NCBI GenBank assembly: GCA_027037615.1
Contig: JALVZN010000041.1
Coordinates: forward strand, 5,636-38,833
Source: Caldifarciminota bacterium
GTDB lineage: Bacteria > Hydrothermota > Hydrothermia > B15-G9
Direction: 5' to 3'
DNA: 33,198 bases
Each line of letters opens with the position of its first letter. The stretch's first letter is position 1. Of the stretch, positions 6,065 through 30,014 are shown one piece after another. Below the pieces are notes generated by a model that made no database searches, was not told where the DNA came from, and saw only the letters and a program-made list of their open reading frames with translations. Both the position numbers and the translations under genes were made by a program.

Positions 6065-8470
6065 ATGCGCAGATTTGCAATTAAGTTTGTAACGGTTGCC
6101 CTCGTTTTGGGAGTTAACGCCTTTGCTGACGGCGTGATCATCCCGGACATTCCCCTTGAAGAGACTTTCCAATTTAATTTCCGTCAGGATTTTTATTATG
6201 GGGCGCCTATCTATTTCAGCATGCCATACCACAGGGTAAAAGTTAATATAACCAACAATGTCGCACAGGTTAGCGTGATGGAAGCCTTTTACAACAAGCA
6301 TGATTTCCCCGTTGAAGGAGACTACATTTTCCCGCTTCCGTCTGACGCCGCAATCTCGAATTTTGCGATCGTTACGGACATCATGGAGATCGAAGGCCAG
6401 GTAATGGACAGAGAGGAGGCAAGAGAGCTGTTCACGGAGTATCTGAGGCGAGGGGTCGATCCAGCTCTACTCGAATACTTTGGGAATAACCTCTTCAGAG
6501 CGAAGATATTCCCGATAGGTTCGGGAGAAAAGGTTGACTTTAAAATCGACTATGAGCATGTCATGCCAGTTACAGGTGGACTTTTCAAATTCGAATACCC
6601 TTTGAAAATAGACGCACTCATAGATGGCAAAATAGATTCGATAGAAATTTCAATCACCATCAAGAGTGATAGAGCTATAACAACTGTGTTTTCACCAACT
6701 CACAAAATATCCACTACATGGTTAAATAACAGAAAGGTTGAGGTCAGGTTTTCCGACAGGGGCTATTTGCCCGAAAGCGATTTTGTCCTCTACTACGGGG
6801 TTTCGGACAGGCCTTTCGACATGTCGCTCGTCACATACAAAGAGCATGACGACGGATACTTCATGTTGAACATATTTCCGGGCAAACCTCCATCCAGCAA
6901 ACCTGTTCCAAAGGACATAATCTTTGTGCTGGATGTTTCCGGAAGCATGTCAGGGGAGAAATTAAAACAGGCTAAAGAAGGCCTGTTCTTCATGCTTGAT
7001 CACCTCAACGAGGGAGACAGGTTTGATATTATAGCCTTCAACGATGAGCTTAAAGAGTTTAGTTCCGATGGCCTCGTGAACGCTAACGCCTTTAACATCA
7101 AGAAAGCAAGGAAGTTTGCGAAATCATTTTATGCTCTGGGAGCAACCGACATAAACCTCGCTTTGACAACAGCTTTGAAGAAACTTTCATCTCATGGAGG
7201 AGGAATAAGGGCGAAATACATCCTGTTTTTGACCGATGGGAGACCGACCGCTGGGGTTGTGGAGGTCGGAGCCATAACGAGGAACATAAGGGCTAAACTC
7301 GGCAAGGCGAGGATATTCGTTTTCGGTGTCGGATACGATGTCAACACGATGTTGCTCGATAAAATCGCCGAGATGTCTAACGGTTATGTTGAGTATCTTG
7401 AACAGGGCAAGGACATCGAGAGAGCCATAACCGCCTTGTATCAAGCCATTCAGGCACCGGCACTTATCGATGTGCGGCTGACCATCGACGGGGTCGAGAC
7501 ATATCAGGTGTATCCCCGTAAGATGCCCGACCTCTACTACGGCACGCAGACGATCGTGACCGGCAGGTATAAGGACGGGGGCGAGGCTACAATCAGGATT
7601 GTCGGGAAAGACGCGAACGGACAGGGGCGCACCTACACTAAATCGGTTTGGTTCCCGAGGTCCGCCACCAACACGGATACGGATATATGTCTTCCGAAGT
7701 CAGCCAAGAACACGGATACGGTGGTATTCTCATGGCTTCCGGAGTCGGACACGGGCATCTATACGGATCTGTTGTTCTGGTCCTCGGAGTCAGACACGAA
7801 CACGGATACGGAATCATCGTCATGGGTTACGGAGTCAGACACGGGCACGGATATGAAGTTCGTTAGCCGCCTATGGGCGCGACGGCGCATCGCCGACCTG
7901 CTTGCCTACATCGACGAGCATGGCGAAGATGAGGAAGTCGTCGATGAGATCAAAAGGCTCGGCAAAAAGTATGGTATAGTGACACCTTACACCTCGTTTT
8001 TTATCAGAGAACAGGATGACCCATTCTACTTCTCGTACACAGCACCCACCTTCTCTAATGGCTCAGGTTCAAAGTCAAGAATAAGGAGTCAGTTTTCATT
8101 AGGTGCAACTCGAATGCACCTACTTTCCTCCGGGGCTGAGCAGAATTCAAACGCAGTGCAAAGCTTTCGCCGTTCTCAGATAAAGGCCAAATATCGCTAC
8201 AACCAGCAGGTAGCTCAACCGGAATTTTCATATGCGGAGAGGCGCATCAAGACGGCCGGAGATAAAACCTTTTTCTATGATTCGGATACTGGTTTCTGGA
8301 TCGACACGGAATACGATGAGGACAAATGCACGAATACCAGAGTTGTGACCTACGGTTCCGATGAGTTTATCGATCTTGTGAATTCCAGCAAAAAACTTGC
8401 AGTTTACCTTTCGATAGGTAAAAATGTTATAGTCGTCGTGGACGGTGTGTGTTACAAAATAAAGGGGTGA
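6065..8470 (+). CDS. VIT domain + von Willebrand factor A domain secreted protein
   Basis: Signal peptide. VIT-like region with VEGDYIFPLPSDAAISNFAIVTD...GQVMDREEARELF. VWA MIDAS in DIIFVLDVSGSMSGEKLKQAKEG, plus FLTDGRPTAGV. Terminal RLWARRRIADLLAYIDEHG...YGIVTPYTSFFI is typical of VIT/VWA proteins. RBS aaggaggtga is upstream. Confidence 0.92.
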   Translation: MRRFAIKFVTVALVLGVNAFADGVIIPDIPLEETFQFNFRQDFYYGAPIYFSMPYHRVKVNITNNVAQVSVMEAFYNKHDFPVEGDYIFPLPSDAAISNFAIVTDIMEIEGQVMDREEARELFTEYLRRGVDPALLEYFGNNLFRAKIFPIGSGEKVDFKIDYEHVMPVTGGLFKFEYPLKIDALIDGKIDSIEISITIKSDRAITTVFSPTHKISTTWLNNRKVEVRFSDRGYLPESDFVLYYGVSDRPFDMSLVTYKEHDDGYFMLNIFPGKPPSSKPVPKDIIFVLDVSGSMSGEKLKQAKEGLFFMLDHLNEGDRFDIIAFNDELKEFSSDGLVNANAFNIKKARKFAKSFYALGATDINLALTTALKKLSSHGGGIRAKYILFLTDGRPTAGVVEVGAITRNIRAKLGKARIFVFGVGYDVNTMLLDKIAEMSNGYVEYLEQGKDIERAITALYQAIQAPALIDVRLTIDGVETYQVYPRKMPDLYYGTQTIVTGRYKDGGEATIRIVGKDANGQGRTYTKSVWFPRSATNTDTDICLPKSAKNTDTVVFSWLPESDTGIYTDLLFWSSESDTNTDTESSSWVTESDTGTDMKFVSRLWARRRIADLLAYIDEHGEDEEVVDEIKRLGKKYGIVTPYTSFFIREQDDPFYFSYTAPTFSNGSGSKSRIRSQFSLGATRMHLLSSGAEQNSNAVQSFRRSQIKAKYRYNQQVAQPEFSYAERRIKTAGDKTFFYDSDTGFWIDTEYDEDKCTNTRVVTYGSDEFIDLVNSSKKLAVYLSIGKNVIVVVDGVCYKIKG
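7651..7866 (+). repeat. ~45-bp tandem repeat (about 5 units) inside the VIT/VWA gene
   Basis: Units at about 7651-7689 (short), 7690-7734, 7735-7779, 7780-7824 and 7825-7866, with core GGAGTCAGACACGGGCACGGATACGG. Open in all three forward frames (ORFs 6065-8470, 7599-7856, 7648-7866) and in one reverse frame (7638-7823). Confidence 0.9.
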
Positions 8471-9906: not shown

Positions 9907-10370
9907 AATGTTACCGAAATGAAACCGCTCACCAAATGATAATGTTACCAAAATGGAGGTAAAATATGCACAAAAAGCTACCTATGAGTTTCTCGGAAAG
10001 GCACAAATATTTGCTCCTGATGAAATCTCGCTACAAAAAGGCCCCTAAGAAAGAAAAACATATCCTCCTCAATGAGATGCAACAGGTCACAGGTCTCCAC
10101 CGTAAATCAATCATCCGCCTGATGAATGCCCCTTCTCTCACCACTGAGTGCAGACCTCGCGCTCTCCACAAGGACGACAATAATTTGTGTGGCAGAAGAT
10201 CGGCTTTCCTGTTAGCTCCTGCATAAGCTGTTACTTCCATGAAGCTTTAGCTTAAATAGTATTTCGTGGAGGCAGGTATTAGAGTGTTTTTCTATCGTCT
10301 TACAGAAAAGCGGCAAGGGAAAATGTTTTTCTCCGAATTCAGGCGTGTCCTCAATTTTGGGAGTTACCTA
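9907..10370 (+). mobile_element. Insertion-sequence relic with transposase N-terminal fragment (ORF 9966-10226)
   Basis: RYKKAPKKEKHILLNEMQQVTGLHRKSIIRLM resembles the fragment at 3979-4203. Left flank has AATGTTACCRAAATG twice (9907-9921, 9941-9955). CCAAAATGGAGG (9948-9959) and CCTCAATTTTGG (10349-10360) form an 11/12 inverted pair. No catalytic domain. Confidence 0.6.
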
Positions 10371-10546: not shown

Positions 10547-10960
10547 ATGGTTTATAAAGAGCACAGTGGTTTGATAGTGATTAGACTTGATGATGGGGAA
10601 ATCTTTCCAGATGAATCGAAATCCATATTTGACGATATACCATACATGGAGAGTGGAGTTGTTTTGTCTGCGCTTGGGATGTTGAGCGATTTTGAGCTCG
10701 GATACTTTCGGGACGGGGAATATCACAGAGACAGATTTGATGTGCCGATGGAGCTGATAGCGATAAGCGGTAGCATTAGTCGCAACGCTGAGCCATGGTA
10801 TCATCTTCATGCGGCCCTCGCTAATGAAGACAAATCGGTAGTAGGCGGACACTTGTTTCGGGGCAGGGTATGGGGAACTCTGGAAATCTTCTTGCTGAGC
10901 TCAGAGCTGAAGTTGTATCGCGTGCCCAAAGGCAACCTTAAAGTCCTTGACATAATCTGA
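10547..10960 (+). CDS. PPC/DUF296 domain protein
   Basis: LIVIRLDDGEIFPDE...GVVLSALGMLSDFELGYFRDGEYHRDRFDVPMELIAISGSISRNAEPWYHLHAALANEDKSVVGGHLFRGRVWGTLEIFLL matches the PPC/DUF296 pattern, including HLHA and GGHL. Confidence 0.88.
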   Translation: MVYKEHSGLIVIRLDDGEIFPDESKSIFDDIPYMESGVVLSALGMLSDFELGYFRDGEYHRDRFDVPMELIAISGSISRNAEPWYHLHAALANEDKSVVGGHLFRGRVWGTLEIFLLSSELKLYRVPKGNLKVLDII

Positions 10961-10972
10961 GGAGGGGGAAAA

Positions 10973-11563
10973 TTGATAGTTAGCATAGCAGACAGGCTAA
11001 TAAAGATGAAGGTTTTATATTATGGGCCCCAAGGTTCAGGCAAAGCTACCAATCTGGCTTTTATAAGCGAAAAATACAGCGGGAAGAAGTCTGAACTCCG
11101 GGAGATTGAGACTATAGGACACAAACACTTCTCAATCACAATAGCTCCGATAGGATTTGAGCGATTGCATTCATTTAACATCTGGATAGAGCTCCTGACT
11201 GTGCCCGGCAAGCCAGAGTATCAGTCTGCCAGACGGGTGTTGCTCAGGGACACCGATGCTGTGGTTTTCGTGGCTGATTCCCAGATAGAGAGGACCAATG
11301 AGAATTTTCAGATGATAGTGGATTTGAAAAGCAACATGAGATTTTACAACATGACCATGAGGGACATCTTTCTGGTGATGCAGTATAACAAGCGCGACCT
11401 GCCGGACGCAGCACCGGTCCCTTACCTACAAAGGGTTTTAAATAGTAGTTTTAATGCTCCCTACATGGAAGCCATAGCGATACAGGGGGTCGGTGTAATG
11501 GAAACGCTTAACCAAGTACTTGAGAGTCTTATAAATACACTCAAAGCTAAATACGGCTCATAA
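10973..11563 (+). CDS. MglA-like small GTPase with substituted catalytic motifs (putative pseudo-GTPase)
   Basis: KMKVLYYGPQGSGKATNLAFI, LLTVPGKPEYQSARRVLLRDTDAVVFVADSQIERTNENFQ, VMQYNKRDLP. TTG start with ggaggggg RBS. Confidence 0.88.
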   Translation: MIVSIADRLIKMKVLYYGPQGSGKATNLAFISEKYSGKKSELREIETIGHKHFSITIAPIGFERLHSFNIWIELLTVPGKPEYQSARRVLLRDTDAVVFVADSQIERTNENFQMIVDLKSNMRFYNMTMRDIFLVMQYNKRDLPDAAPVPYLQRVLNSSFNAPYMEAIAIQGVGVMETLNQVLESLINTLKAKYGS

Positions 11564-11567
11564 CGCA

Positions 11568-12359
11568 TCATATACCGTGTTTCGAGAGCAAGGCATCCAT
11601 ATCTTTTTTGAATTTGTCTCTTGAATCTTCAGGGACTTCATTAGCAAGTAGGTCGATAAGCTGTCTCACTTTATTGCGCGGGAATTCGCTTTCTTTTTCG
11701 CCGAGCTGCATGATCTTCTCGCTGACGATAATGCCTGAGATTGGACCTATGTATTCGGTAAACTTCTTGATTATCTCATCCATTACGCTCTTATCAAGCA
11801 CCTCGTCTGGAGAGATAGTCTTTTTGACCCTGACAAGCCCATGAGAGATGAGGTTTTTCACAGCTTTGAAAACCTCGATCTCGCTTATTCCGAGATTAGC
11901 CGCAATGTCCTTAATCCTCGATTTCCCGTTTATCTGAGCGAGAATTTTCCACTCTACTGCGCTGAGTTTCAGCTCCTCATTTGAAGGTGTAGACTCCGTA
12001 AAGACAGGTATCGCAAACGGATCAAGCGCATCTTTTATGTCCTGCAGCTCGTCCAGTTTAACGGATAGGTCGAGAATGATGCTTTCAATATCTTCTTCTA
12101 TGGTTCTTTTAGGAGCTTCCTCATTAGGATAGAACTCAAAATCCCCCTCGTTCCAAAGATATGTAAGGAAAAGAGCATCTTTCCCTTCTACGGTTCCAGT
12201 TGTAGCGTGGATCACATTTCCCTTTTCAAAATAGATCTCGCCTCTGTCTTCTCCATGCCGCAACTCCAGTCGTCCCGTTAAACGGGAATGATGGATAAGC
12301 TCCAGTATATCAATGAGCTTTATATCCGCTAAATTTCCTGTAATTACCGGCATATTCAC
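11568..12359 (-). CDS. DUF4388 (PATAN-like) domain protein with central winged-helix-like segment
   Basis: MPVITGNLADIKLIDILELIHHSRLTGRLELRHGEDRGEIYFEKGNVIHATTGTVEGKDALFLTYLWNEGDFEF matches DUF4388. SAVEWKILAQINGKSRIKDIAANLGISEIEVFKAVKNLISHGLVRVKK is HTH-like. Confidence 0.85.
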   Translation of the reverse strand: MNMPVITGNLADIKLIDILELIHHSRLTGRLELRHGEDRGEIYFEKGNVIHATTGTVEGKDALFLTYLWNEGDFEFYPNEEAPKRTIEEDIESIILDLSVKLDELQDIKDALDPFAIPVFTESTPSNEELKLSAVEWKILAQINGKSRIKDIAANLGISEIEVFKAVKNLISHGLVRVKKTISPDEVLDKSVMDEIIKKFTEYIGPISGIIVSEKIMQLGEKESEFPRNKVRQLIDLLANEVPEDSRDKFKKDMDALLSKHGI

Positions 12360-12374
12360 CTCATTGTTTTTAAT

Positions 12375-13550
12375 TTACTTGACAATTACTGACTTCCCAT
12401 TTACTACGCGAGCAAGATAGATTTTCCTTATAGCATCACCTCTGGCATCGAATGTTATAGTTCCGGTAACCCCTTGGTAAGGTGGAAGTCCCCGTCCCAC
12501 TATTGACAGGTATCTCCTGACAGATTCACGAGATATCCCGCGCTCCTGAAGGGCTTTTATTATTAAATTTGCTGCATCGTACGCAAACGCGGCCCAAGGA
12601 CATGGCTCGTATCCGTATTTATCCTTGTAATCCCTGGCAAACTGTTTGTAAGAGATAGAGTTCGGGTTAAAGAATTCAGAGTGATACACGCCTTCGGCAT
12701 GCTTCCCAGCAAATTTCTTAAAGCTTTGCGGCATGCATCCATCGCCACAAAGCTTGGTAACATTTCTGAGCCCAACTGAGTCAACTGCGGCAAATACTGC
12801 TGCTGCTGAGTGGGGTATACAGGCTGCAAATATGAGATCAGGGTTCTGGCTTTTTAAAGCGGCTAGTGTATGGCCGAGATTTGTTACTCCAGCCATGTAA
12901 GGTATTCTTGCCAATACCTTGCCTCCACGAGCTGTAAATGTTCTAACAAAGAAGTAGGAGAGGCCTCTTCCATAGTCGTCGTTGTCATAAATCACAATTG
13001 CCCTTCTCGCATGGAGGTATGATATCGCCTGACCGGCGAGGATCCTTCCCTGCTGGGCATCACTTGGCACAACGCGGAATACATATCTACCTGCCTGACT
13101 GAGCCTTGGACTTGTGGCACTCGGAGAGATTGCCACAAGACGATAACGGTTATACATGAGGGCACCTGCGAGTGTCGTGCTGCTGTTGTAATGTCCGACA
13201 ACGCCCATGACTGCTGGATCTCTGCCAAACATGCGGGCAACTGAGAGAGCCTTGTTTCTGTTTGCCCCGTCATCACCTTTCACGAGCAGGATGTTGACAT
13301 TCGGTATCTCTCCCTTGAGGTTGAAGTTATCAACTGCCATTCGAACACCATCATAAATATGTTGTGGTTCAGGAGCCATAGCCTGAACGCTGAACGGAGC
13401 TGCTACCCCGATTTTTATCATGCGTAACCGTCCGGTCTGGGTCGGCACCTGATTGCTCAAAACGCCGATAGGGTCGGCGTTCGAGAGCGTCACAGCAAAG
13501 ATCGTTATTAACAAACCTGATATTACGGCAAAACTTATTTTCTTCATCAT
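12375..13550 (-). CDS. Leu/Ile/Val-type periplasmic ligand-binding protein (Peripla_BP_6-like)
   Basis: Signal peptide. IKIGVAAPFSVQ...GVRMAVDNFN...NILLVKGDDGANRNKALSVARMFGRDPAVMGVVGHYNSSTTLAGALMYNRYRLVAISPSATSPRLSQAGRYVFRVVPSDAQQGRILAGQAI. Confidence 0.92.
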   Translation of the reverse strand: MMKKISFAVISGLLITIFAVTLSNADPIGVLSNQVPTQTGRLRMIKIGVAAPFSVQAMAPEPQHIYDGVRMAVDNFNLKGEIPNVNILLVKGDDGANRNKALSVARMFGRDPAVMGVVGHYNSSTTLAGALMYNRYRLVAISPSATSPRLSQAGRYVFRVVPSDAQQGRILAGQAISYLHARRAIVIYDNDDYGRGLSYFFVRTFTARGGKVLARIPYMAGVTNLGHTLAALKSQNPDLIFAACIPHSAAAVFAAVDSVGLRNVTKLCGDGCMPQSFKKFAGKHAEGVYHSEFFNPNSISYKQFARDYKDKYGYEPCPWAAFAYDAANLIIKALQERGISRESVRRYLSIVGRGLPPYQGVTGTITFDARGDAIRKIYLARVVNGKSVIVK

Positions 13551-13573
13551 GGCTTACCTCCGTGATTAAATTT

Positions 13574-14299
13574 TTACCTGCGAAGCCTTTCTATTGCAAG
13601 TTTCAAGCTTCTTGACATCCTTTCAATGGCCTGTGCCAGCTCACCGATCTCGTCGTTCGATTTCACATCAATCTTAACATCGAAGTCCCCCATACTCAAT
13701 TTGTTTGCGACTTCCGTCAGGTGCACTATCGGGTTGACGATACTGTTAGCGAATATGATCGCCATTGCAATTCCTCCAAGGAGCACTATGACCACGATGA
13801 CGAACAGGGATTTCAGAATTTTGTTGACCTCTCGTTTAACCCGCAAGAGTGAGATGCCGATCCTGAATGTTCCCAGCTCACCGCCGAGAATTGGCACGCC
13901 TATGTCCATGTAAGGAACTTTGTTAAAGATGATTGTTTTGATGCTTAGAGTGTCGCTTCTTACAAGGTTGGCTTTGAGAAATTTCTCTGGCAGATTCTCG
14001 ACCTCAAATGTATGCGCCAGAAGATTGCCAGCATCATCTGTTACGAGGGCGTAATCGACATCACCAGCGCTTTTTACCCTGTCGCATATTTCAAAAAGTG
14101 ATGCGCTATCGCCGTTGATTATTGGCTCCTCTGACTCCTTAGCAGCCTGAATTGCAAAGATAACACCTTGTTTCTGTAGTTGCTGTGTAAAAAAACCTCG
14201 AACAAAACTATTTATGTATATTGCAATAATGGCGGAAAGAGCTACAATTAGGGCAACTACCATCCCAAGTACTTTCCATCTTAAGCTTATTTTCTTCAT
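13574..14299 (-). CDS. Membrane sensor protein with extracytoplasmic domain and terminal HAMP domain (no output domain)
   Basis: Two TM segments (VLGMVVALIVALSAIIAIYI; SLFVIVVIVLLGGIAMAIIFANSIV) followed by HAMP PIVHLTEVANKLSMGDFDVKIDVKSNDEIGELAQAIERMSRSLKLAIERL, then stop. Confidence 0.9.
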   Translation of the reverse strand: MKKISLRWKVLGMVVALIVALSAIIAIYINSFVRGFFTQQLQKQGVIFAIQAAKESEEPIINGDSASLFEICDRVKSAGDVDYALVTDDAGNLLAHTFEVENLPEKFLKANLVRSDTLSIKTIIFNKVPYMDIGVPILGGELGTFRIGISLLRVKREVNKILKSLFVIVVIVLLGGIAMAIIFANSIVNPIVHLTEVANKLSMGDFDVKIDVKSNDEIGELAQAIERMSRSLKLAIERLRR

Positions 14300-14389
14300 C
14301 GTGCCCTCCTTTTGTTGCCAAAGTTTAAGGTTACTCAAATTTTAAGTCAATCAAACCAGCATAGCTCTAACGAAATTGGCATCCAATAT

Positions 14390-14419
14390 AGTATAGATAA
14401 ATTTTTGCTGTTATTTCAA
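14390..14419 (-). promoter_or_regulatory. Putative sigma70-type promoter for the HAMP/SBP/DUF4388 operon
   Basis: Minus strand reads TTGAAA-(18 nt)-TATACT (5/6 matches to each consensus hexamer), about 90 bp upstream of the ATG at 14299. Confidence 0.55.
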
Positions 14420-22985: not shown

Positions 22986-24686
22986 GTGGATGATCGGAGG
23001 CTTTTGACAGCCCTTTTAAAAGCCAATGTAATAACCAGAGAGCAGGCTCAAATGCTGCTCGAAGAAAGGAAAACATCAAATCTCAGCCTTGTGAAATTAA
23101 TTCCAAAGATGGGGATTGCGAGCGAGGACGATGTTATAAGGACAGTCGGTGATGTTTACAGAATTCCAGTGGTTGATCCCACAACAGAAGATGTTGATCC
23201 ACAGGTTTTTAAATACATTCCAGTTGAGATAGCCCGAAAATACAAGATTTTCCCGCTTAGGAGGAGAGGCAGAACTCTCGTCGTGGCGATGAGCGACCCG
23301 ACCGATTACACGATCGTGGACAACCTGAAATTCATCACCGGATACGAGATCGAGCCTGTTCTCTCCACAGAAACATCCATAATGAGGGCGATAGACCAGT
23401 ATTATGGTGCCGAAGATAAGCTCAAGGAGATACTGGAATCCCTGAAGGAGGCAGAGGGCAACCTTGAGGTGATGGAGGAAGAAGAAACCTCTCCCGAGAC
23501 GGCTGCCGCGCTTGTGGAAGAAGCCCCTGTTGTGAAATTGGTCAACGGGATAATCATCGAGGCGGTCAAGAGACGTGCCAGCGATATTCATATCGAGCCT
23601 TACGAGAGATTTGTTAGGGTGAGGTTCAGGATCGACGGCGTGTTGCATGAGGTTATGCCAATCCCGCCGAGGTATCGTGACGCCGTGGTCTCGAGGATAA
23701 AGATCATGTCGAGATTGGACATAGCCGAGAGGAGATTGCCTCAGGACGGCCATATCAAGATGAAATTGCAGGATGGGCGTGTGATTGACCTTCGTGTCTC
23801 GACATTGCCGACCTTGTTTGGCGAAAAGGTGGTTATGCGTATCCTGGATAAGAGCAACCTGAAGTTCGACCTTGCGAAGCTCGGCATGGAGCAGCAGGCG
23901 CTGAAGCTGTTCCTCGAAGCGATACAGAGACCTTACGGCATCATCCTGGTTACAGGGCCAACGGGAAGCGGTAAAACGACGACTTTGTATTCGGCAATTT
24001 CGAGGTTGAACAAGCCTGAAGTCAACATCATGACCGCCGAGGACCCGGTCGAATACGACTTCCCGGGCGTCAATCAGGTTCAGATCAGGGAAGACATCGG
24101 ATTGACATTTGCGGTGGCACTAAGGGCGTTCCTTCGTCAGGACCCTGACATCATCCTTGTCGGAGAGATTCGTGACCAGGAGACCGCTGAAATAGCTATC
24201 AGGGCAGCACTTACAGGTCACCTTGTGCTTTCAACATTGCACACGAACGACGCGCCAAGCACGGTCAGCAGGTTGATAGACATGGGCATTCCGCCGTATC
24301 TCGTCGCTGCCTCCCTTAATCTTATTGTAGCTCAACGACTTGTTAAAAGGATCTGTCCAAAATGTAAAACGCCGTATCATCCAACAAAAGAGGATCTTTT
24401 GAAGCTTAATCTGAGCGAGAAGGAAGTTAAAGGCGTTACGCTTTACTATGGAAAAGGATGTGGTGCTTGCAATAACACAGGGTATTCAGGGCGTGAGGGA
24501 CTTTACGAGGTCATGAAAATCACGCCCGAAATCAGGGAGCTCATCCTTAAAAACGCCCCTACCCATGTCCTGAAAGAAAAAGCCATAGAGCAGGGGATGG
24601 TAACCCTGCGTGAGGCTGGCATAAAGAAATTATTTGCTGGAAAGACAACAATTCAAGAAGTATTGAGGGCAACAGTGGAGGATTGA
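22986..24686 (+). CDS. pilB: Type IV pilus assembly / type II secretion ATPase PilB/GspE family
   Basis: N-terminal GspE domain, GPTGSGKTTTLYSAI, MTAEDPVEYDFPGVNQVQI, RAFLRQDPDIILVGEIRDQETAEIAIRAALTGHLVLSTLHTNDA, zinc module CPKCKTPYHP...CGACNNTGYSGREGLYEV. GTG start. Confidence 0.95.
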   Translation: MDDRRLLTALLKANVITREQAQMLLEERKTSNLSLVKLIPKMGIASEDDVIRTVGDVYRIPVVDPTTEDVDPQVFKYIPVEIARKYKIFPLRRRGRTLVVAMSDPTDYTIVDNLKFITGYEIEPVLSTETSIMRAIDQYYGAEDKLKEILESLKEAEGNLEVMEEEETSPETAAALVEEAPVVKLVNGIIIEAVKRRASDIHIEPYERFVRVRFRIDGVLHEVMPIPPRYRDAVVSRIKIMSRLDIAERRLPQDGHIKMKLQDGRVIDLRVSTLPTLFGEKVVMRILDKSNLKFDLAKLGMEQQALKLFLEAIQRPYGIILVTGPTGSGKTTTLYSAISRLNKPEVNIMTAEDPVEYDFPGVNQVQIREDIGLTFAVALRAFLRQDPDIILVGEIRDQETAEIAIRAALTGHLVLSTLHTNDAPSTVSRLIDMGIPPYLVAASLNLIVAQRLVKRICPKCKTPYHPTKEDLLKLNLSEKEVKGVTLYYGKGCGACNNTGYSGREGLYEVMKITPEIRELILKNAPTHVLKEKAIEQGMVTLREAGIKKLFAGKTTIQEVLRATVED

Positions 24687-24687
24687 T

Positions 24688-25767
24688 ATGCCATACACAA
24701 TGGAACAGCTTTTAAGGATCACTGTGGATCAGAGAGCCACAGACCTTCACATAATTGCGGGCATGCCGCCTTTTCTCAGGATAGACAAGAAATTGGTTCC
24801 ACTTGGGAACCAGCCTTTAACGGCAGCGGAAACAAGGACATTGATTTACAGCATGTTAAACGACCAGCAGAAGCTCAGGTTTGAGAATGAGCTGGAGCTG
24901 GACTTTGCTATTTCTGTTGCCGGGTTGAGCCGGTTCAGGGCCAACGCGTACTGGCAGCAGGGCAGTGTTGCCGCCGCTATTAGGCGCATTCCTGTCAGGA
25001 TACCGACGCCTGAAGCCCTTAACCTGCCGCCTGTGGTTATCGGGCTTACTCAGAAATCTCAGGGACTCGTCCTTGTAACAGGTCCTACCGGAAGTGGAAA
25101 ATCGACGACGCTGGCTTCCTTGCTCAACAAGATCAATAATGACCGGGCGGAACATATCCTAACAGTCGAAGACCCTATCGAGTATGTGTATCAGCCAAAG
25201 CTGTCGATAATCTCGCAGCGAGAGCTTGATCAGGACACCAAATCGTTCGCAAACGCACTTAAGTATGCACTCAGACAGGATCCTGACGTTATAATGGTCG
25301 GTGAGATGCGCGATAAGGAGACGATCGCACTCGCTCTGACGGCGGCTGAAACTGGCCACCTCGTTTTCGCAACGCTGCACACCTATTCGGCGATCGAGTC
25401 GATAAACCGTATAATTGATGTGTTCCCTGCCCACCAGCAATCTCAAGTTAGGGCTCAACTGGCTCAGGTTCTTGAAGCTACTATAGCGCAGAGACTTTTG
25501 CCTCGCGCTGGTGGTAAAGGTCTTGTCCTTGCGATGGAAATTATGATATCAACACCTGCTGTAAGGACACTTATCCGCGAGGCCAGAAACCATGAAATTT
25601 ACGGCGTCATACAGACAAGCCAGCGCTACGGCATGAGAACGATGAACATGTCCTTGATCGAACTTTTAAAGAAAAATTTGATAACATGGCAGACGGCCAT
25701 GCTTGCATCGCCCAATCCGGAGGAGCTTAAGCGGATGGCACGAGAAGCAGGCCTGATATTTGTGTAG
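24688..25767 (+). CDS. pilT: Type IV pilus twitching motility ATPase PilT
   Basis: DLHIIAGMPPFLRID, GPTGSGKSTTLASLL, ILTVEDPIEYVYQPKLSIISQRE, LRQDPDVIMVGEMRDKETI, ATLHTYSAIESINRIIDVFPAHQQSQVRAQLAQVL. Confidence 0.96.
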   Translation: MPYTMEQLLRITVDQRATDLHIIAGMPPFLRIDKKLVPLGNQPLTAAETRTLIYSMLNDQQKLRFENELELDFAISVAGLSRFRANAYWQQGSVAAAIRRIPVRIPTPEALNLPPVVIGLTQKSQGLVLVTGPTGSGKSTTLASLLNKINNDRAEHILTVEDPIEYVYQPKLSIISQRELDQDTKSFANALKYALRQDPDVIMVGEMRDKETIALALTAAETGHLVFATLHTYSAIESINRIIDVFPAHQQSQVRAQLAQVLEATIAQRLLPRAGGKGLVLAMEIMISTPAVRTLIREARNHEIYGVIQTSQRYGMRTMNMSLIELLKKNLITWQTAMLASPNPEELKRMAREAGLIFV

Positions 25768-25787
25768 TCTCAGGGGGGTGGTGATAG

Positions 25788-26990
25788 ATGGCAACTTTTG
25801 AATGGACTGGCAGACTAAATCGGCAGCCTGTGAGTGGTAAGATCAAAGCCGGCAGCCTCGAGGAAGCTGTCAAAAGGCTCAGGGAGCAGGGAGTTGTCAT
25901 AGAGTCGATAAACGAGACTAAGGGAGGCTTCTCTTTCAAGCTGTTCCAGAGCGTTACTGCCAAGGACCTCGCTCTCATAAGCCGACAGTTCGCCACCATG
26001 ATCAACGCTGGAATACCTGCGGTGCAGGCTCTTGGAATCTTGGCTGAGCAGGCCTCAAAAGAGAAGCTCAGGGAGGCACTCGCCGACGTTAAGCGTGAAG
26101 TTGAAGGTGGTAAAACGCTCGGCGATGCATTGAGGAAATATCATAGGATGTTCGGCGACTTCTTCATAAGCATGGTGGATGTTGGCGAGGCTGGCGGCTC
26201 GCTCGGTTCCACCCTTGAGCGCGTGGCCGAGTATTACGAAAAGATAACCGCATTGCAGGGTAAAGTTAAATCCGCAATGGCTTATCCCATGGTTGTTTTG
26301 ATTGTAACAATAGGTGTTATACTGCTGATGCTGGTGAAACTCGTCCCCACATTTGCATCGTTGTATGCCGACGTTGGAAGCAAATTGCCTGGCCCAACTC
26401 AGCTCCTGTTGAATGTCAGCCAGTTTATGCAAAGGTATTTCTTTCACATAGTCGGCGGCACGATTGGCCTGGTAATTCTCATCAACAGGATTATGAAAAT
26501 CCCGTCCGTCAGTTATCAATGGGACAAGATAGTCCTGAAAATCCCGATAATCGGGCCTCTCATCCAGAAAACATCTTTGACTCGATTTGCTCGCACTTTG
26601 AGCATCCTCATCCGTAACGGTGTGCCGATACTCGAAAGCCTTGACATCACCTCAAGGGTGGTGGGCAACAAGATCATCGAAGAGGCCATAATGAACGCCA
26701 AGAGAAACATCGGCGAGGGTAGGAGTCTTGCAGCACCTCTGCGTGATAGCGGTATTTTTCCCCCTCTGGTCATCCATCTGATAACCGTCGGCGAGCAGAC
26801 AGGTAAGTTGAGCGACATGCTTGAAAAAGTGGCAGATTTCTACGAGGAAGAGGTCGATACCGCCGTTGAGGCTCTTTCCTCAATCATAGAGCCTGTGATG
26901 CTTGTCTTCCTTGGTGGGTTTGTGGGCGGAATGCTGATCGCCCTTTACCTCCCGATATTCGGACTCGCAGGCACCATCCAGACCGACTGA
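25788..26990 (+). CDS. pilC: Type IV pilus inner-membrane platform protein PilC/GspF family
   Basis: FEWTGRLNRQPVSGKIKAGS, ISRQFATMINAGIPAVQALGIL, GGSLGSTLERVAEYYEK, LSILIRNGVPILESLDI, GEQTGKLSDMLEKVADFYEEEVDTAVEALSSIIEPVMLVFLG. Confidence 0.96.
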   Translation: MATFEWTGRLNRQPVSGKIKAGSLEEAVKRLREQGVVIESINETKGGFSFKLFQSVTAKDLALISRQFATMINAGIPAVQALGILAEQASKEKLREALADVKREVEGGKTLGDALRKYHRMFGDFFISMVDVGEAGGSLGSTLERVAEYYEKITALQGKVKSAMAYPMVVLIVTIGVILLMLVKLVPTFASLYADVGSKLPGPTQLLLNVSQFMQRYFFHIVGGTIGLVILINRIMKIPSVSYQWDKIVLKIPIIGPLIQKTSLTRFARTLSILIRNGVPILESLDITSRVVGNKIIEEAIMNAKRNIGEGRSLAAPLRDSGIFPPLVIHLITVGEQTGKLSDMLEKVADFYEEEVDTAVEALSSIIEPVMLVFLGGFVGGMLIALYLPIFGLAGTIQTD

Positions 26991-28636
26991 TGTACGAAAA
27001 AAGTTACAAGTGGCTGTCCATACTCAGGATATCATCTGTTACCGCTATATTGGGCTCTGCGGTCTATTACCTTAAAGACATTTTCGGACTGGTTTTTGCC
27101 GTCCATCTCGCACTCCTCATCTTCCTGATATACGCAATTACGCTCGCTTTGTGGTCATACATAAAGCGCAAAAGGCCCAGAATTGTCTTTGCATACCTCC
27201 TTTTTGCCCTCGACATTACGATTTACACGCTCATCATCTTTACAACTGGCGGATTGGACAGCTCATTTTTGTTCCTCTATGCGATAGCGGTCATAGCGGC
27301 TGCGATAGTGCTTTCTACGCGCGGCGCATTTTTCGCGGCAACCTACTCAAGCCTGATGCTTTTCTTCATGGCGTTTCTGATCTATCGGAACATAGTCCCG
27401 CCGACTGAATTTTTCGATAAGGCTGACAATTTGCAGGTGTATGACAGCGACCTCTTCTTTCAGGCTTTCTTTCAATCCCTTTTCCTATTCCTGATCGCTG
27501 CCTTTTCAAGCTACTTCACTGAGGCCATAAAGTCGAAGACCATAGAGCTCGGCAAGCTTCGAGAATCGCTGATGCGCGCAAGGATGGACACCTCGGCCAT
27601 ACTTCAAAACATACCTTCGGGCGTGATTGTGGCCGATAAAAATGGGAAGATCCATTACATAAACGATGCTGCCAGACAGATTTTGAATTTAAACGGGGAA
27701 AAGATATCGAATTTGAGGCAGATCGGGGGACAGTGGCCTCAGGTTTACAGCGATTTTGAGCGGTATGTCAGCCGTTCGGAGGTCGGATCGGCACCTTTCA
27801 AAAGCGAGATCAGCAGAGAGGACAAAAGTTACATCGTCACACTCTCCAGATTTAGTGATTCTGACAGGTATATCCTCACGATAGAGGACATAACCGAGCA
27901 GAGACGGCTTCAGGAGAAGCTGCGCGAACAGGAGCGATATGCGTTGCTGGGGCAACAGATGGCGGAAATGGTTCATTCTCTGGGCAATCCGGTCGCCGCT
28001 CTCAAGGGCGTGGCTCAAATCCTCCAGTCAGGCACATCTCAGGAGAACATGCAGAAGTTGTTGAAGATAATGGAACAGGAGCTTTCGAGGGTGTCGTCTA
28101 TATTGCACCGATACCGCCAGTTTTCAGGCGTCCACGCCATATTCCCTCAGCCGATAAAACTGCGAGAATTCTTCAGTTCGTTGGTGCGTAAGGTCAGGTA
28201 TATGAGCGAAAGCGGTGGCGTAGAGATAGTGCTGGGGTTCAGAAATTCGCCTGAGATCGCTGAATTCGACGCCGAGAAGTTAGAGGAAGCGCTCGTCAAC
28301 ATGGTGAGGAACAGCATTGAGGCTCTGCATGAAGGCGGCACGATAAAGATATCCGTGTGTGGCCCGGAAGAAAGCATCGAGGGCTTCAGAAAACACTGGA
28401 AGATCCCGACAGGACAGTGGGGGGTGTGCATTTCCGACAATGGGACAGGTATTTCCAGAGAGGCCGTCAACAAAATTTTTACGCCATCGTTCACAACCAA
28501 GGCTCAGGGCCTTGGGCTCGGCCTCGCCATAACCAAGCGGATAATCGAGGTGCATGGCGGCTCGATAGATTTTGATACGGAACAGGGTAAAGGGACAATT
28601 TTTGTTGTAACATTGCCTTTAAAAGTAAGGAGTTGA
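26990..28636 (+). CDS. pilS: PilS-like membrane sensor histidine kinase (PAS domain)
   Basis: Multiple TM helices, PAS-like ILQNIPSGVIVADKNGKIHYINDAARQIL, H-box EMVHSLGNPVAALKGVAQIL, N box EEALVNMVRNSIEAL, G boxes ISDNGTGIS and GLGLGLAITKRIIEVHGG. Confidence 0.88.
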   Translation: MYEKSYKWLSILRISSVTAILGSAVYYLKDIFGLVFAVHLALLIFLIYAITLALWSYIKRKRPRIVFAYLLFALDITIYTLIIFTTGGLDSSFLFLYAIAVIAAAIVLSTRGAFFAATYSSLMLFFMAFLIYRNIVPPTEFFDKADNLQVYDSDLFFQAFFQSLFLFLIAAFSSYFTEAIKSKTIELGKLRESLMRARMDTSAILQNIPSGVIVADKNGKIHYINDAARQILNLNGEKISNLRQIGGQWPQVYSDFERYVSRSEVGSAPFKSEISREDKSYIVTLSRFSDSDRYILTIEDITEQRRLQEKLREQERYALLGQQMAEMVHSLGNPVAALKGVAQILQSGTSQENMQKLLKIMEQELSRVSSILHRYRQFSGVHAIFPQPIKLREFFSSLVRKVRYMSESGGVEIVLGFRNSPEIAEFDAEKLEEALVNMVRNSIEALHEGGTIKISVCGPEESIEGFRKHWKIPTGQWGVCISDNGTGISREAVNKIFTPSFTTKAQGLGLGLAITKRIIEVHGGSIDFDTEQGKGTIFVVTLPLKVRS

Positions 28637-28640
28637 AGGT

Positions 28641-30014
28641 ATGGGGAGGATACTCGTTGTGGATGATGAGGTTGGGATAGCCAACATGCTGCAGATAGCT
28701 CTCTCTCAGGAGGGCCATGATGTGGATGTCGCATATTCCGCCAGAGAAGCGCTTGAAAAGGCTACGGATAACCCACCGGATGTCGCTGTAATCGACATAA
28801 GGATGGAAGGGATGAGCGGGTTGGATTTGCTCTCGGCGCTCAGGAACATCGGCGATGTAACCGTAATAATGATGACGGCTTACGCATCCGTTGAGTCAGC
28901 GGTGGAATCTCTCAGAAAAGGCGCTTTCGACTACATCATGAAGCCGTTTGACATCGATGAGATGAAGGTCGTGGTTGATAGGGCGTTTGAATATCGGAAG
29001 TTGATGAAGGAGAACCGCAAGCTTCGTGAGGAGATCAGGAAATATCGCCGATATGAAAAGCTGATCGGGGAGCATCCAGCGTTCCGTGCCGTGCTGGAAA
29101 AAGTCAGAATTATCGCCAAAACGGATTCGACAGTGATGATTTACGGGGAGAGCGGCACAGGTAAGGAGCTTGTAGCCCGCGAATTGCACTCTTTGAGCAA
29201 CAGGGCAAACGGCCCGTTCGTGGCAATTAACATGGCCTCGATCCCTGAGGATCTGCTTGAGAGCGAGCTGTTCGGCCATAAGAAGGGGGCTTTCACCGGT
29301 GCATCGTACGACAAAAAGGGACTTTTCGTGGCTGCAAACGGCGGGACCCTTTTCCTTGATGAGATAAGCGAGACCTCTCCGAAGCTTCAGGCGAAATTGC
29401 TGCGGGCCATCGAATCGAAAGAAATCACACCGCTCGGAGCCACAAAGCCCATAAAAGTGGATGTTCGCATAGTTGCAGCCACTAACAAGAACTTAAAACG
29501 GCTTGTCGAGGAGAAGAAGTTTCGGGAAGACCTGTTCTATCGACTGAATGTGATAACTATCAGGATTCCGCCTTTGAGGAAGCGAAAAAGCGATATCCCG
29601 CTGCTCGTTGACTACTTCCTCAACAAGTATTCCGTCCGTCACGGGCTGCCGAACAAGAAGATAACGCGTGAGGCGCTGGATATCCTCACGAAATACTCGT
29701 GGCCCGGCAATGTGAGGGAGCTTGAGCATGTTATCGAACAGGCCCTCATACTGTCTCAAGGGGATACGATCGATGTCGATGATCTGCCAAATGAGATCAA
29801 AAATGCGGTCAAGCGTGACAAATCAAGCCGTTCCTTCATGGGGCTTCTGGAGCAGGAAGGCCTGATTTCTCTTGAGGAGTTGGAGGAAAAATACATCCAG
29901 ATGGTGCTGAACGATACCGGATGGGACAAACGGCGTGCTGCGGCGATACTCGGGATCGATCTCTCAACGCTTTACCGCAAGATTACCAAATACAACATCA
30001 AAAAGGAGGACTGA
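28641..30014 (+). CDS. pilR: PilR/NtrC-family sigma54-dependent response regulator
   Basis: Receiver RILVVDDE...VAVIDIRMEGMSGLDLL; AAA+ GESGTGKELVARELH, GHKKGAFTGA, GGTLFLDEISE; C-terminal Fis-type HTH GWDKRRAAAILGIDLSTLYRKI. Confidence 0.93.
   Translation: MGRILVVDDEVGIANMLQIALSQEGHDVDVAYSAREALEKATDNPPDVAVIDIRMEGMSGLDLLSALRNIGDVTVIMMTAYASVESAVESLRKGAFDYIMKPFDIDEMKVVVDRAFEYRKLMKENRKLREEIRKYRRYEKLIGEHPAFRAVLEKVRIIAKTDSTVMIYGESGTGKELVARELHSLSNRANGPFVAINMASIPEDLLESELFGHKKGAFTGASYDKKGLFVAANGGTLFLDEISETSPKLQAKLLRAIESKEITPLGATKPIKVDVRIVAATNKNLKRLVEEKKFREDLFYRLNVITIRIPPLRKRKSDIPLLVDYFLNKYSVRHGLPNKKITREALDILTKYSWPGNVRELEHVIEQALILSQGDTIDVDDLPNEIKNAVKRDKSSRSFMGLLEQEGLISLEELEEKYIQMVLNDTGWDKRRAAAILGIDLSTLYRKITKYNIKKED

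Follow-up and report, generated by a model that had tools for sequence, protein, structure and literature searches.

A HAMP-only receptor, a predicted STAC-domain adaptor and an MglA-derived pseudo-GTPase form a candidate phosphotransfer-free sensing cassette in a WOR-3 bacterium

How does a membrane receptor that has nothing but a HAMP domain in the cytoplasm pass on what it senses, and what might a binding protein without a transporter and an MglA-like protein without its catalytic residues contribute? The question is raised by five genes in a 33,198-nucleotide stretch of the draft genome of a WOR-3 bacterium (assembly GCA_027037615.1, contig JALVZN010000041.1, positions 5,636 to 38,833; hereafter the window, in which all positions below are counted). 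An initial annotation of this DNA had described two plus-strand genes that converge, 4 bp apart, with a three-gene minus-strand operon, and this layout holds with small corrections to the coordinates. Its domain calls stand as well, except that it had overlooked a Cache domain in the HAMP protein and a winged helix and C-terminal STAC domain in the DUF4388 protein, the latter here called the adaptor. We consider it reasonably probable (about 65%) that the cassette senses across the membrane without phosphotransfer, by a pathway that has a receptor-STAC pair of the archaeal Af1503/Af1502 type at its core and a pseudo-GTPase as non-hydrolysing partner. The minus-strand operon runs from receptor through binding protein to adaptor, its genes 23 and 15 bp apart, and the features of the locus are as follows.

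10547-10960, plus strand: PCC/DUF296 protein, 137 amino acids (Pfam PF03479, E = 8.6e-22)
10973-11563, plus strand: MglA-like pseudo-GTPase, 196 amino acids (Pfam Ras/Arf)
11024-11047, plus strand: P-loop GPQGSGKA of the MglA-like protein, Thr26 replaced by Ala (sequence, alignment)
11123-11128, plus strand: switch I Lys-His of the MglA-like protein, replacing Arg53-Thr54 (alignment)
11210-11212, plus strand: Lys of the MglA-like protein, replacing Gln82 of the TVPGQ motif (alignment)
11568-12359, minus strand: adaptor, DUF4388-winged helix-STAC, 263 amino acids, start GTG 12359 or ATG 12353 (Pfam DUF4388, E = 1.1e-22)
11574-11804, minus strand: predicted STAC domain of the adaptor, residues ~186-262 (profile, model, Foldseek)
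11742-11747, minus strand: G-P motif within the adaptor STAC domain
12375-13550, minus strand: LIV-type periplasmic binding protein with signal peptide, 391 amino acids (Peripla_BP_6, E = 9e-48)
13574-14299, minus strand: Cache-HAMP receptor without output domain, 241 amino acids (Pfam sCache_3_2 and HAMP)
13583-13609, minus strand: receptor C-terminal tail SLKLAIERL, candidate STAC contact (tail pattern; matches the Af1503 tail)

The receptor, for which we prefer the start ATG 14299 with its good ribosome-binding site (the open reading frame itself opens at TTG 14338), has a HAMP domain that ends some 8 residues short of the stop codon, and the earlier description of a protein without kinase, cyclase or methyl-accepting chemotaxis module is thus correct. 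A truncated histidine kinase is ruled out, as the identical end point is conserved in two other families at 33-37% identity. Its eight best matches in the PDB are all Af1503 entries or engineered variants thereof (best E = 5e-7), and the alignment with Af1503 runs through the tail (IERMSRSLKLAIERLR in the window receptor versus IERLRRSLKVAMESLE in Af1503). On this sequence evidence, the archaeal orphan receptor Af1503 has a bacterial relative in the window receptor. When HAMP-only receptors are anchored on their DEIG motif, the pattern R-M-x-x-S-L-K/R-x-A-M/I-x-R-L emerges directly before the stop; a simple form of this tail pattern is found in 27 of 33 HAMP-only proteins versus 1 of 80 proteins in which an output domain follows HAMP, and it is missing in the three HAMP-only proteins that have no STAC neighbor (L168, L172, L179). 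The conserved tail is, judging from these alignments, likely to be the STAC contact.

The partner of this tail would be the C-terminal domain of the adaptor, which has no Pfam family. Searching its profile against 177,635 PDB sequences gave Af1502 as top match at a borderline E of 0.096, with only three matches below E 10; according to PMC4834066, Af1502 itself comes out of sequence searches as a singleton. The AlphaFold2 model of the domain (pLDDT, the predicted local distance difference test score, 94.6) is a four-helix bundle, with helices at residues 8-22, 26-36, 46-57 and 62-78 of the modelled fragment and with G23-P24 sitting between the first two helices as expected of the STAC GP motif. 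Foldseek with this model ranks Af1502 first and second (probability 1.00 and 0.99) and the next match at 0.33, and from profile and predicted fold together we assign the domain as STAC. The initial annotation had the HAMP protein signaling to the DUF4388 protein: the adaptor is retained as recipient, whereas the contact itself is most likely HAMP to STAC, as in an Af1503/Af1502-type pair. The winged helix that links the two domains (residues ~132-180; Pfam HTH_27, E = 4.9e-5) resembles MarR-type regulators (E = 0.0022), and its kinship to the DUF742 domain of CvnC was rejected (E = 0.15, in one homologue only). Collinear DUF4388-winged helix-STAC homologues are present in Deltaproteobacteria. 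The full-length adaptor model (pLDDT 85) finds its best PDB folds in GATOR1-type chains, regulators of Rag GTPases (E 1e-4), at a root-mean-square deviation of ~19 Å, so that the correspondence must be limited to a portion of the chain; we record this as a lead only.

Pairing of HAMP-only receptors with STAC proteins extends well beyond the window. Short STAC proteins that carry an LGPx(x)A motif are frequent partners of Af1503-like receptors (PMC4834066), and on scanning the GTDB genome collection with the receptor we found HAMP-only receptors in other phyla adjoining proteins that end in the same domain, with a conserved G-P motif. Strong STAC matches occur in 9 of 147 WOR-3 genomes, and these are exactly the nine with a HAMP-only receptor (Fisher 1.5e-14, not corrected for phylogeny). 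At the non-WOR-3 loci of this first scan, examined with a STAC model built from WOR-3 sequences only, a STAC gene accompanies four of eight HAMP-only receptors versus none of 71 with an output domain (p = 4.7e-5). A search with STAC alone, covering the genomes with matches and 145 genomes of one deltaproteobacterial class, gave new loci. Altogether 36 STAC genes were found without reference to HAMP, save for L208, whose region the receptor scan had touched through another HAMP gene; 21 of the 36 directly adjoin a HAMP-only receptor, in every case sharing its strand, with gaps of -46 to 143 bp. The DUF4388-winged helix-STAC architecture is seen in ten, nine of these beside a receptor, and among other STAC proteins an ExeA-like AAA domain recurs (AAA_22 in 14 of 23), which constitutes a second effector type for HAMP-only receptors. 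Tentatively, and with somewhat less than even confidence, we propose that in bacteria and archaea alike STAC is the general cytoplasmic receiver for HAMP receptors that lack an output domain, and that the effectors fused to it or encoded with it are exchangeable (DUF4388-winged helix, roadblock/MglA, ExeA-like AAA ATPase, Ser/Thr kinase). WOR-3 bacteria would then hold a phosphotransfer-free pathway from a receptor fed by a binding protein to a small GTPase, with a derived version in which the GTPase is a selected, non-hydrolysing pseudo-GTPase.

Individual loci from these scans are noted here in their own right. STAC genes with large N-terminal parts directly precede HAMP-only receptors at L207, L215, L217, L222, L224, L227-L229 and L231; in most of those scanned the N-terminal part is an ExeA-like AAA ATPase, and at some of these loci a binding protein of the NMT1-LysM type follows. 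In the cyanobacterium Hassallia byssoidea (L146, 9419-12733), a HAMP-only receptor lies beside a Ser/Thr kinase with C-terminal STAC and a phosphonate-type periplasmic binding protein.

Within WOR-3, the whole block was compared between the window's own draft genome (G000) and its three closest relatives (G001-G003, with G003 in another genus); the work is limited by metagenome-derived draft genomes and contig ends, and related loci were counted separately. All five genes are retained in G001 (GTPase 94% identical) and G002 (GTPase 66% identical), and four in G003, in the same convergent layout and with no PCC gene found before the nearby contig end. The flanking genes compared on the PCC/GTPase side have no match to the window in any of the three relatives, while those on the receptor side are common to the window and G001 and different in G003. 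The block, kept together as its flanks change, behaves as a unit beyond chance. Its sensor part recurs in two distant WOR-3 families, f30 (G082, G094) and f17 (G045, G070, G078), as a HAMP-only receptor, a binding protein (in some cases fused to TonB_C), DUF4388 proteins, weakly matching roadblock-like proteins (E 0.026-0.046 in f17) and STAC, the latter either as a stand-alone protein or fused to a roadblock-like part. The window itself has no roadblock protein, and the cassette neither kinase nor roadblock. The trio of binding protein, HAMP receptor and DUF4388 protein is thus found in three WOR-3 families, and also in deltaproteobacterial genomes with a different binding-protein family; this recurrence supports the proposal of the initial annotation that the three belong together in ligand sensing without classical phosphotransfer.

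The binding protein, whose nearest solved structures are 4mlc and 3td9, was said to lack an ABC (ATP-binding cassette) permease or ATPase, and indeed none is found near it in the window. The LIV permease family PF02653 is moreover missing from the drafts G000-G003, G082 and G045, while 12 of 14 control genomes have it, and a complete LIV-type ABC transporter was ruled out on its absence from G000-G003. In 13 of 14 deltaproteobacterial loci tested, L128 included, the gene after the receptor encodes an NMT1-like binding protein with LysM; with the LIV-type and phosphonate-type (L146) partners, binding proteins of unrelated families accompany the receptor.

The MglA-like protein differs from its kin where catalysis is concerned. 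In a tree with 80 other WOR-3 MglA proteins, those of the window and of the three relatives form one clade (support 100/99) on a long stem of 1.57. Across these four members Arg53 is replaced by K/K/K/E, Thr54 by H/H/H/V and Gln82 by K/K/N/R, residues retained in 73, 80 and 78 of the 80 others, respectively. In MglA, Arg-53 is the catalytic residue, and the coordination of Mg is completed by Thr-54 (PMC11016934). The Thr26 position, Thr in all 80 others, reads A/A/S/T (Ser in G002, Thr in G003); in Myxococcus MglA, T26N abolished motility, though the protein was undetected in cells (PMC3000849). The GKA P-loop highlighted in the initial annotation is thus real in the window and confined to the two closest species, so that we rejected it as a family feature; the older, family-wide lesions are those at Arg53, Thr54 and Gln82. 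The protein shares its descent with MglA Group 1 but is no canonical member, having lost the conserved G2 Arg and TVPGQ. The guanine-binding NKxD motif is intact as NKRD in all four members and guanine binding may persist, while loss of the three residues would probably make the protein a fixed-state partner rather than a GTP-controlled switch, with switching then at the STAC contact. The gene is no pseudogene: between G000 and G001 its ratio of nonsynonymous to synonymous substitution rates (dN/dS) is 0.058 (canonical paralogue 0.017), indicative of purifying selection. An intact receiver-DUF4388, MglB, MglA operon elsewhere in the same genome (L031) shows that the pseudo-GTPase coexists with a working MglA system. 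Separately, L037 (G075:C2, 8586-11542) carries four tandem MglA paralogues, two without the Gly-Gln of TVPGQ (TVPTHV, TVPIHV), so that catalytic residues were lost independently in a further WOR-3 family.

That the GTPase belongs with the sensor genes, as the initial annotation had it, is borne out in several lineages and is not obligatory. Genes for MglA and MglB accompany HAMP-only and STAC genes in family f30 of WOR-3 (in G082, MglB and a canonical MglA are next door to the sensor module) and at L132 (Pseudomonadota), L208 (Desulfamplus) and L209 (Caldithrix), the latter three having come from searches that did not use MglA. No MglA match was obtained in the three f17 genomes with the sensor module, and most STAC loci, including most deltaproteobacterial ones, are without a GTPase. 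We take the receptor-STAC pair to be the core and the Ras-like module to be one of several outputs.

The data establish the gene content, the conserved linkage, the homology of the receptor to Af1503, the profile and fold likeness of the STAC domain to Af1502, the loss of catalytic residues, purifying selection and the absence of a LIV permease. As to the contacts, direction of signal flow, ligand and final output of the cassette, we infer the following. The LIV-type protein, serving no LIV transporter, would hand its ligand to the Cache domain of a dimeric Cache-HAMP receptor, upon which the HAMP helices would change state. The HAMP output helix or surface, with the conserved tail, would then bind or release the STAC domain of the adaptor, which may pass its state on via the DUF4388-winged helix part and engage the MglA-like protein. 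The latter would act here as a non-hydrolysing partner, standing in for the switching MglA/MglB pair that some related loci have nearby.

Several observations count against this proposal. Related genomes inflate the receptor-STAC counts, the sequence match to Af1502 is borderline when taken alone, and the permease test relies on draft genomes and one family. The GTPase is missing from f17 and most STAC loci, so that its placement in the pathway rests on the linkage in one family and a few other lineages. In the chief rival the output is transcriptional: the adaptor would bind DNA through its winged helix and be captured or released by the receptor, with the PCC-GTPase pair a neighbor in a separate role. 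In its favor are the MarR-like winged helix and the lack of a GTPase at most deltaproteobacterial loci of the DUF4388-winged helix-STAC type. We consider this unlikely, given that the convergent GTPase remains beside the operon although the flanks change, even in a different genus, and that in conservons, the nearest analogue, the CvnC homologue MfpC is a guanine-nucleotide exchange factor and not a known DNA binder (PMC13343842).

STAC and receptor might instead tune a transporter for the ligand of the binding protein, as proposed for STAC in SLC5-kinase proteins. The name STAC refers to receptors linked to transport, and genes for transport are often close to those of Af1503-like receptors (PMC4834066), but with no permease nearby, PF02653 missing as described above and related binding proteins bearing LysM or TonB_C domains instead, we regard such regulation as improbable. 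Hardly probable, finally, is a chance meeting of two unrelated operons with a decaying GTPase. The convergent layout, the degenerate GTPase motifs and a protein change faster than that of the canonical paralogue (dN 0.027 versus 0.005) would fit decay, whereas the reading frame is open in four genomes with NKRD intact and under the selection noted above, and its linkage to the operon persists while neighboring genes changed. The proposed sensing pathway with a pseudo-GTPase partner is the reading we retain.

This pathway can be set beside four known systems. We take DUF4388 and PATAN to be names for overlapping domains. Closest is Af1503/Af1502 of Archaeoglobus fulgidus (PMC4834066; PDB 4gn0, 5a1q), likewise a HAMP-only membrane receptor encoded with a STAC protein, with homologous HAMP including the C-terminal tail and with the same STAC fold and G-P motif; that paper describes the type as a family of archaeal receptors encoded close to transport genes. 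In contrast, the cassette is bacterial, its STAC forms one protein with DUF4388 and a winged helix, and it includes a periplasmic binding protein and a Ras-like protein as well. The conservons CvnA-D, or actinobacterial G protein systems (AGPS; PMC13343842, PMC4316618), also encode a membrane sensor, a winged-helix or regulator protein and an MglA-type GTPase together, but there CvnA resembles a histidine kinase and CvnB belongs to the roadblock proteins; as the cassette has neither, it is no member, and STAC is the candidate link. PATAN proteins near mglA were already known (PMC4316618), and the cassette shares MglA kinship and a DUF4388 neighbor with MglA/MglB systems that have PATAN-type proteins (Makarova et al. 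2006, as cited in PMC4316618), whereas the window GTPase is without Arg53, Thr54 and Gln82 and without adjacent MglB. GlnH-GlnX-PknG of Corynebacterium glutamicum (PMC9769921) works alike in that an effector in the cytoplasm is controlled by two other proteins, a periplasmic binding protein and a membrane protein without a kinase; GlnX has four transmembrane helices and the effector is a Ser/Thr kinase, and the likeness is one of outline, not of membership. Our literature search, which did not reach the original 2015 STAC paper, returned no STAC or HAMP-only receptors in an mglA/PATAN setting.

Af1503 is a standard model for HAMP signaling whose cytoplasmic target is unproven, and the repeated bacterial receptor-STAC pairs offer a testable answer: the effector domains fused to STAC suggest what the signal reaches, and the common HAMP tail can be mutated. 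The cassette further suggests a kinase-free route from environmental input to MglA-type Ras-like proteins, for which the WOR-3 proteins provide a natural gradation between intact MglA and a pseudo-GTPase maintained by selection.

Two further elements of the initial annotation fared less well. PCC/DUF296 adjoins the GTPase in G000, G001 and G002, and although DUF296 homologues occur in 44 of 100 relatives, none of six loci checked outside the genus has another cassette part nearby; we rejected it as a core component since its linkage is genus-specific. The pilus block from which pilus or motility control had been drawn as output is real (pilB, pilT, pilC, pilS and pilR, 22986-30011, plus strand, confirmed by Pfam), but its linkage could be demonstrated in none of the relatives, leaving that output unsupported. 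Upstream of the PCC gene, at the synteny break, an open reading frame of 86 amino acids (9966-10226, plus strand; no Pfam match) looks by eye like a transposase remnant, and farther upstream a VIT-VWA protein (6065-8470, plus strand) carries at residues ~535-610 an irregular repeat in which (E/K)S(D/A)T.TDT motifs abound.

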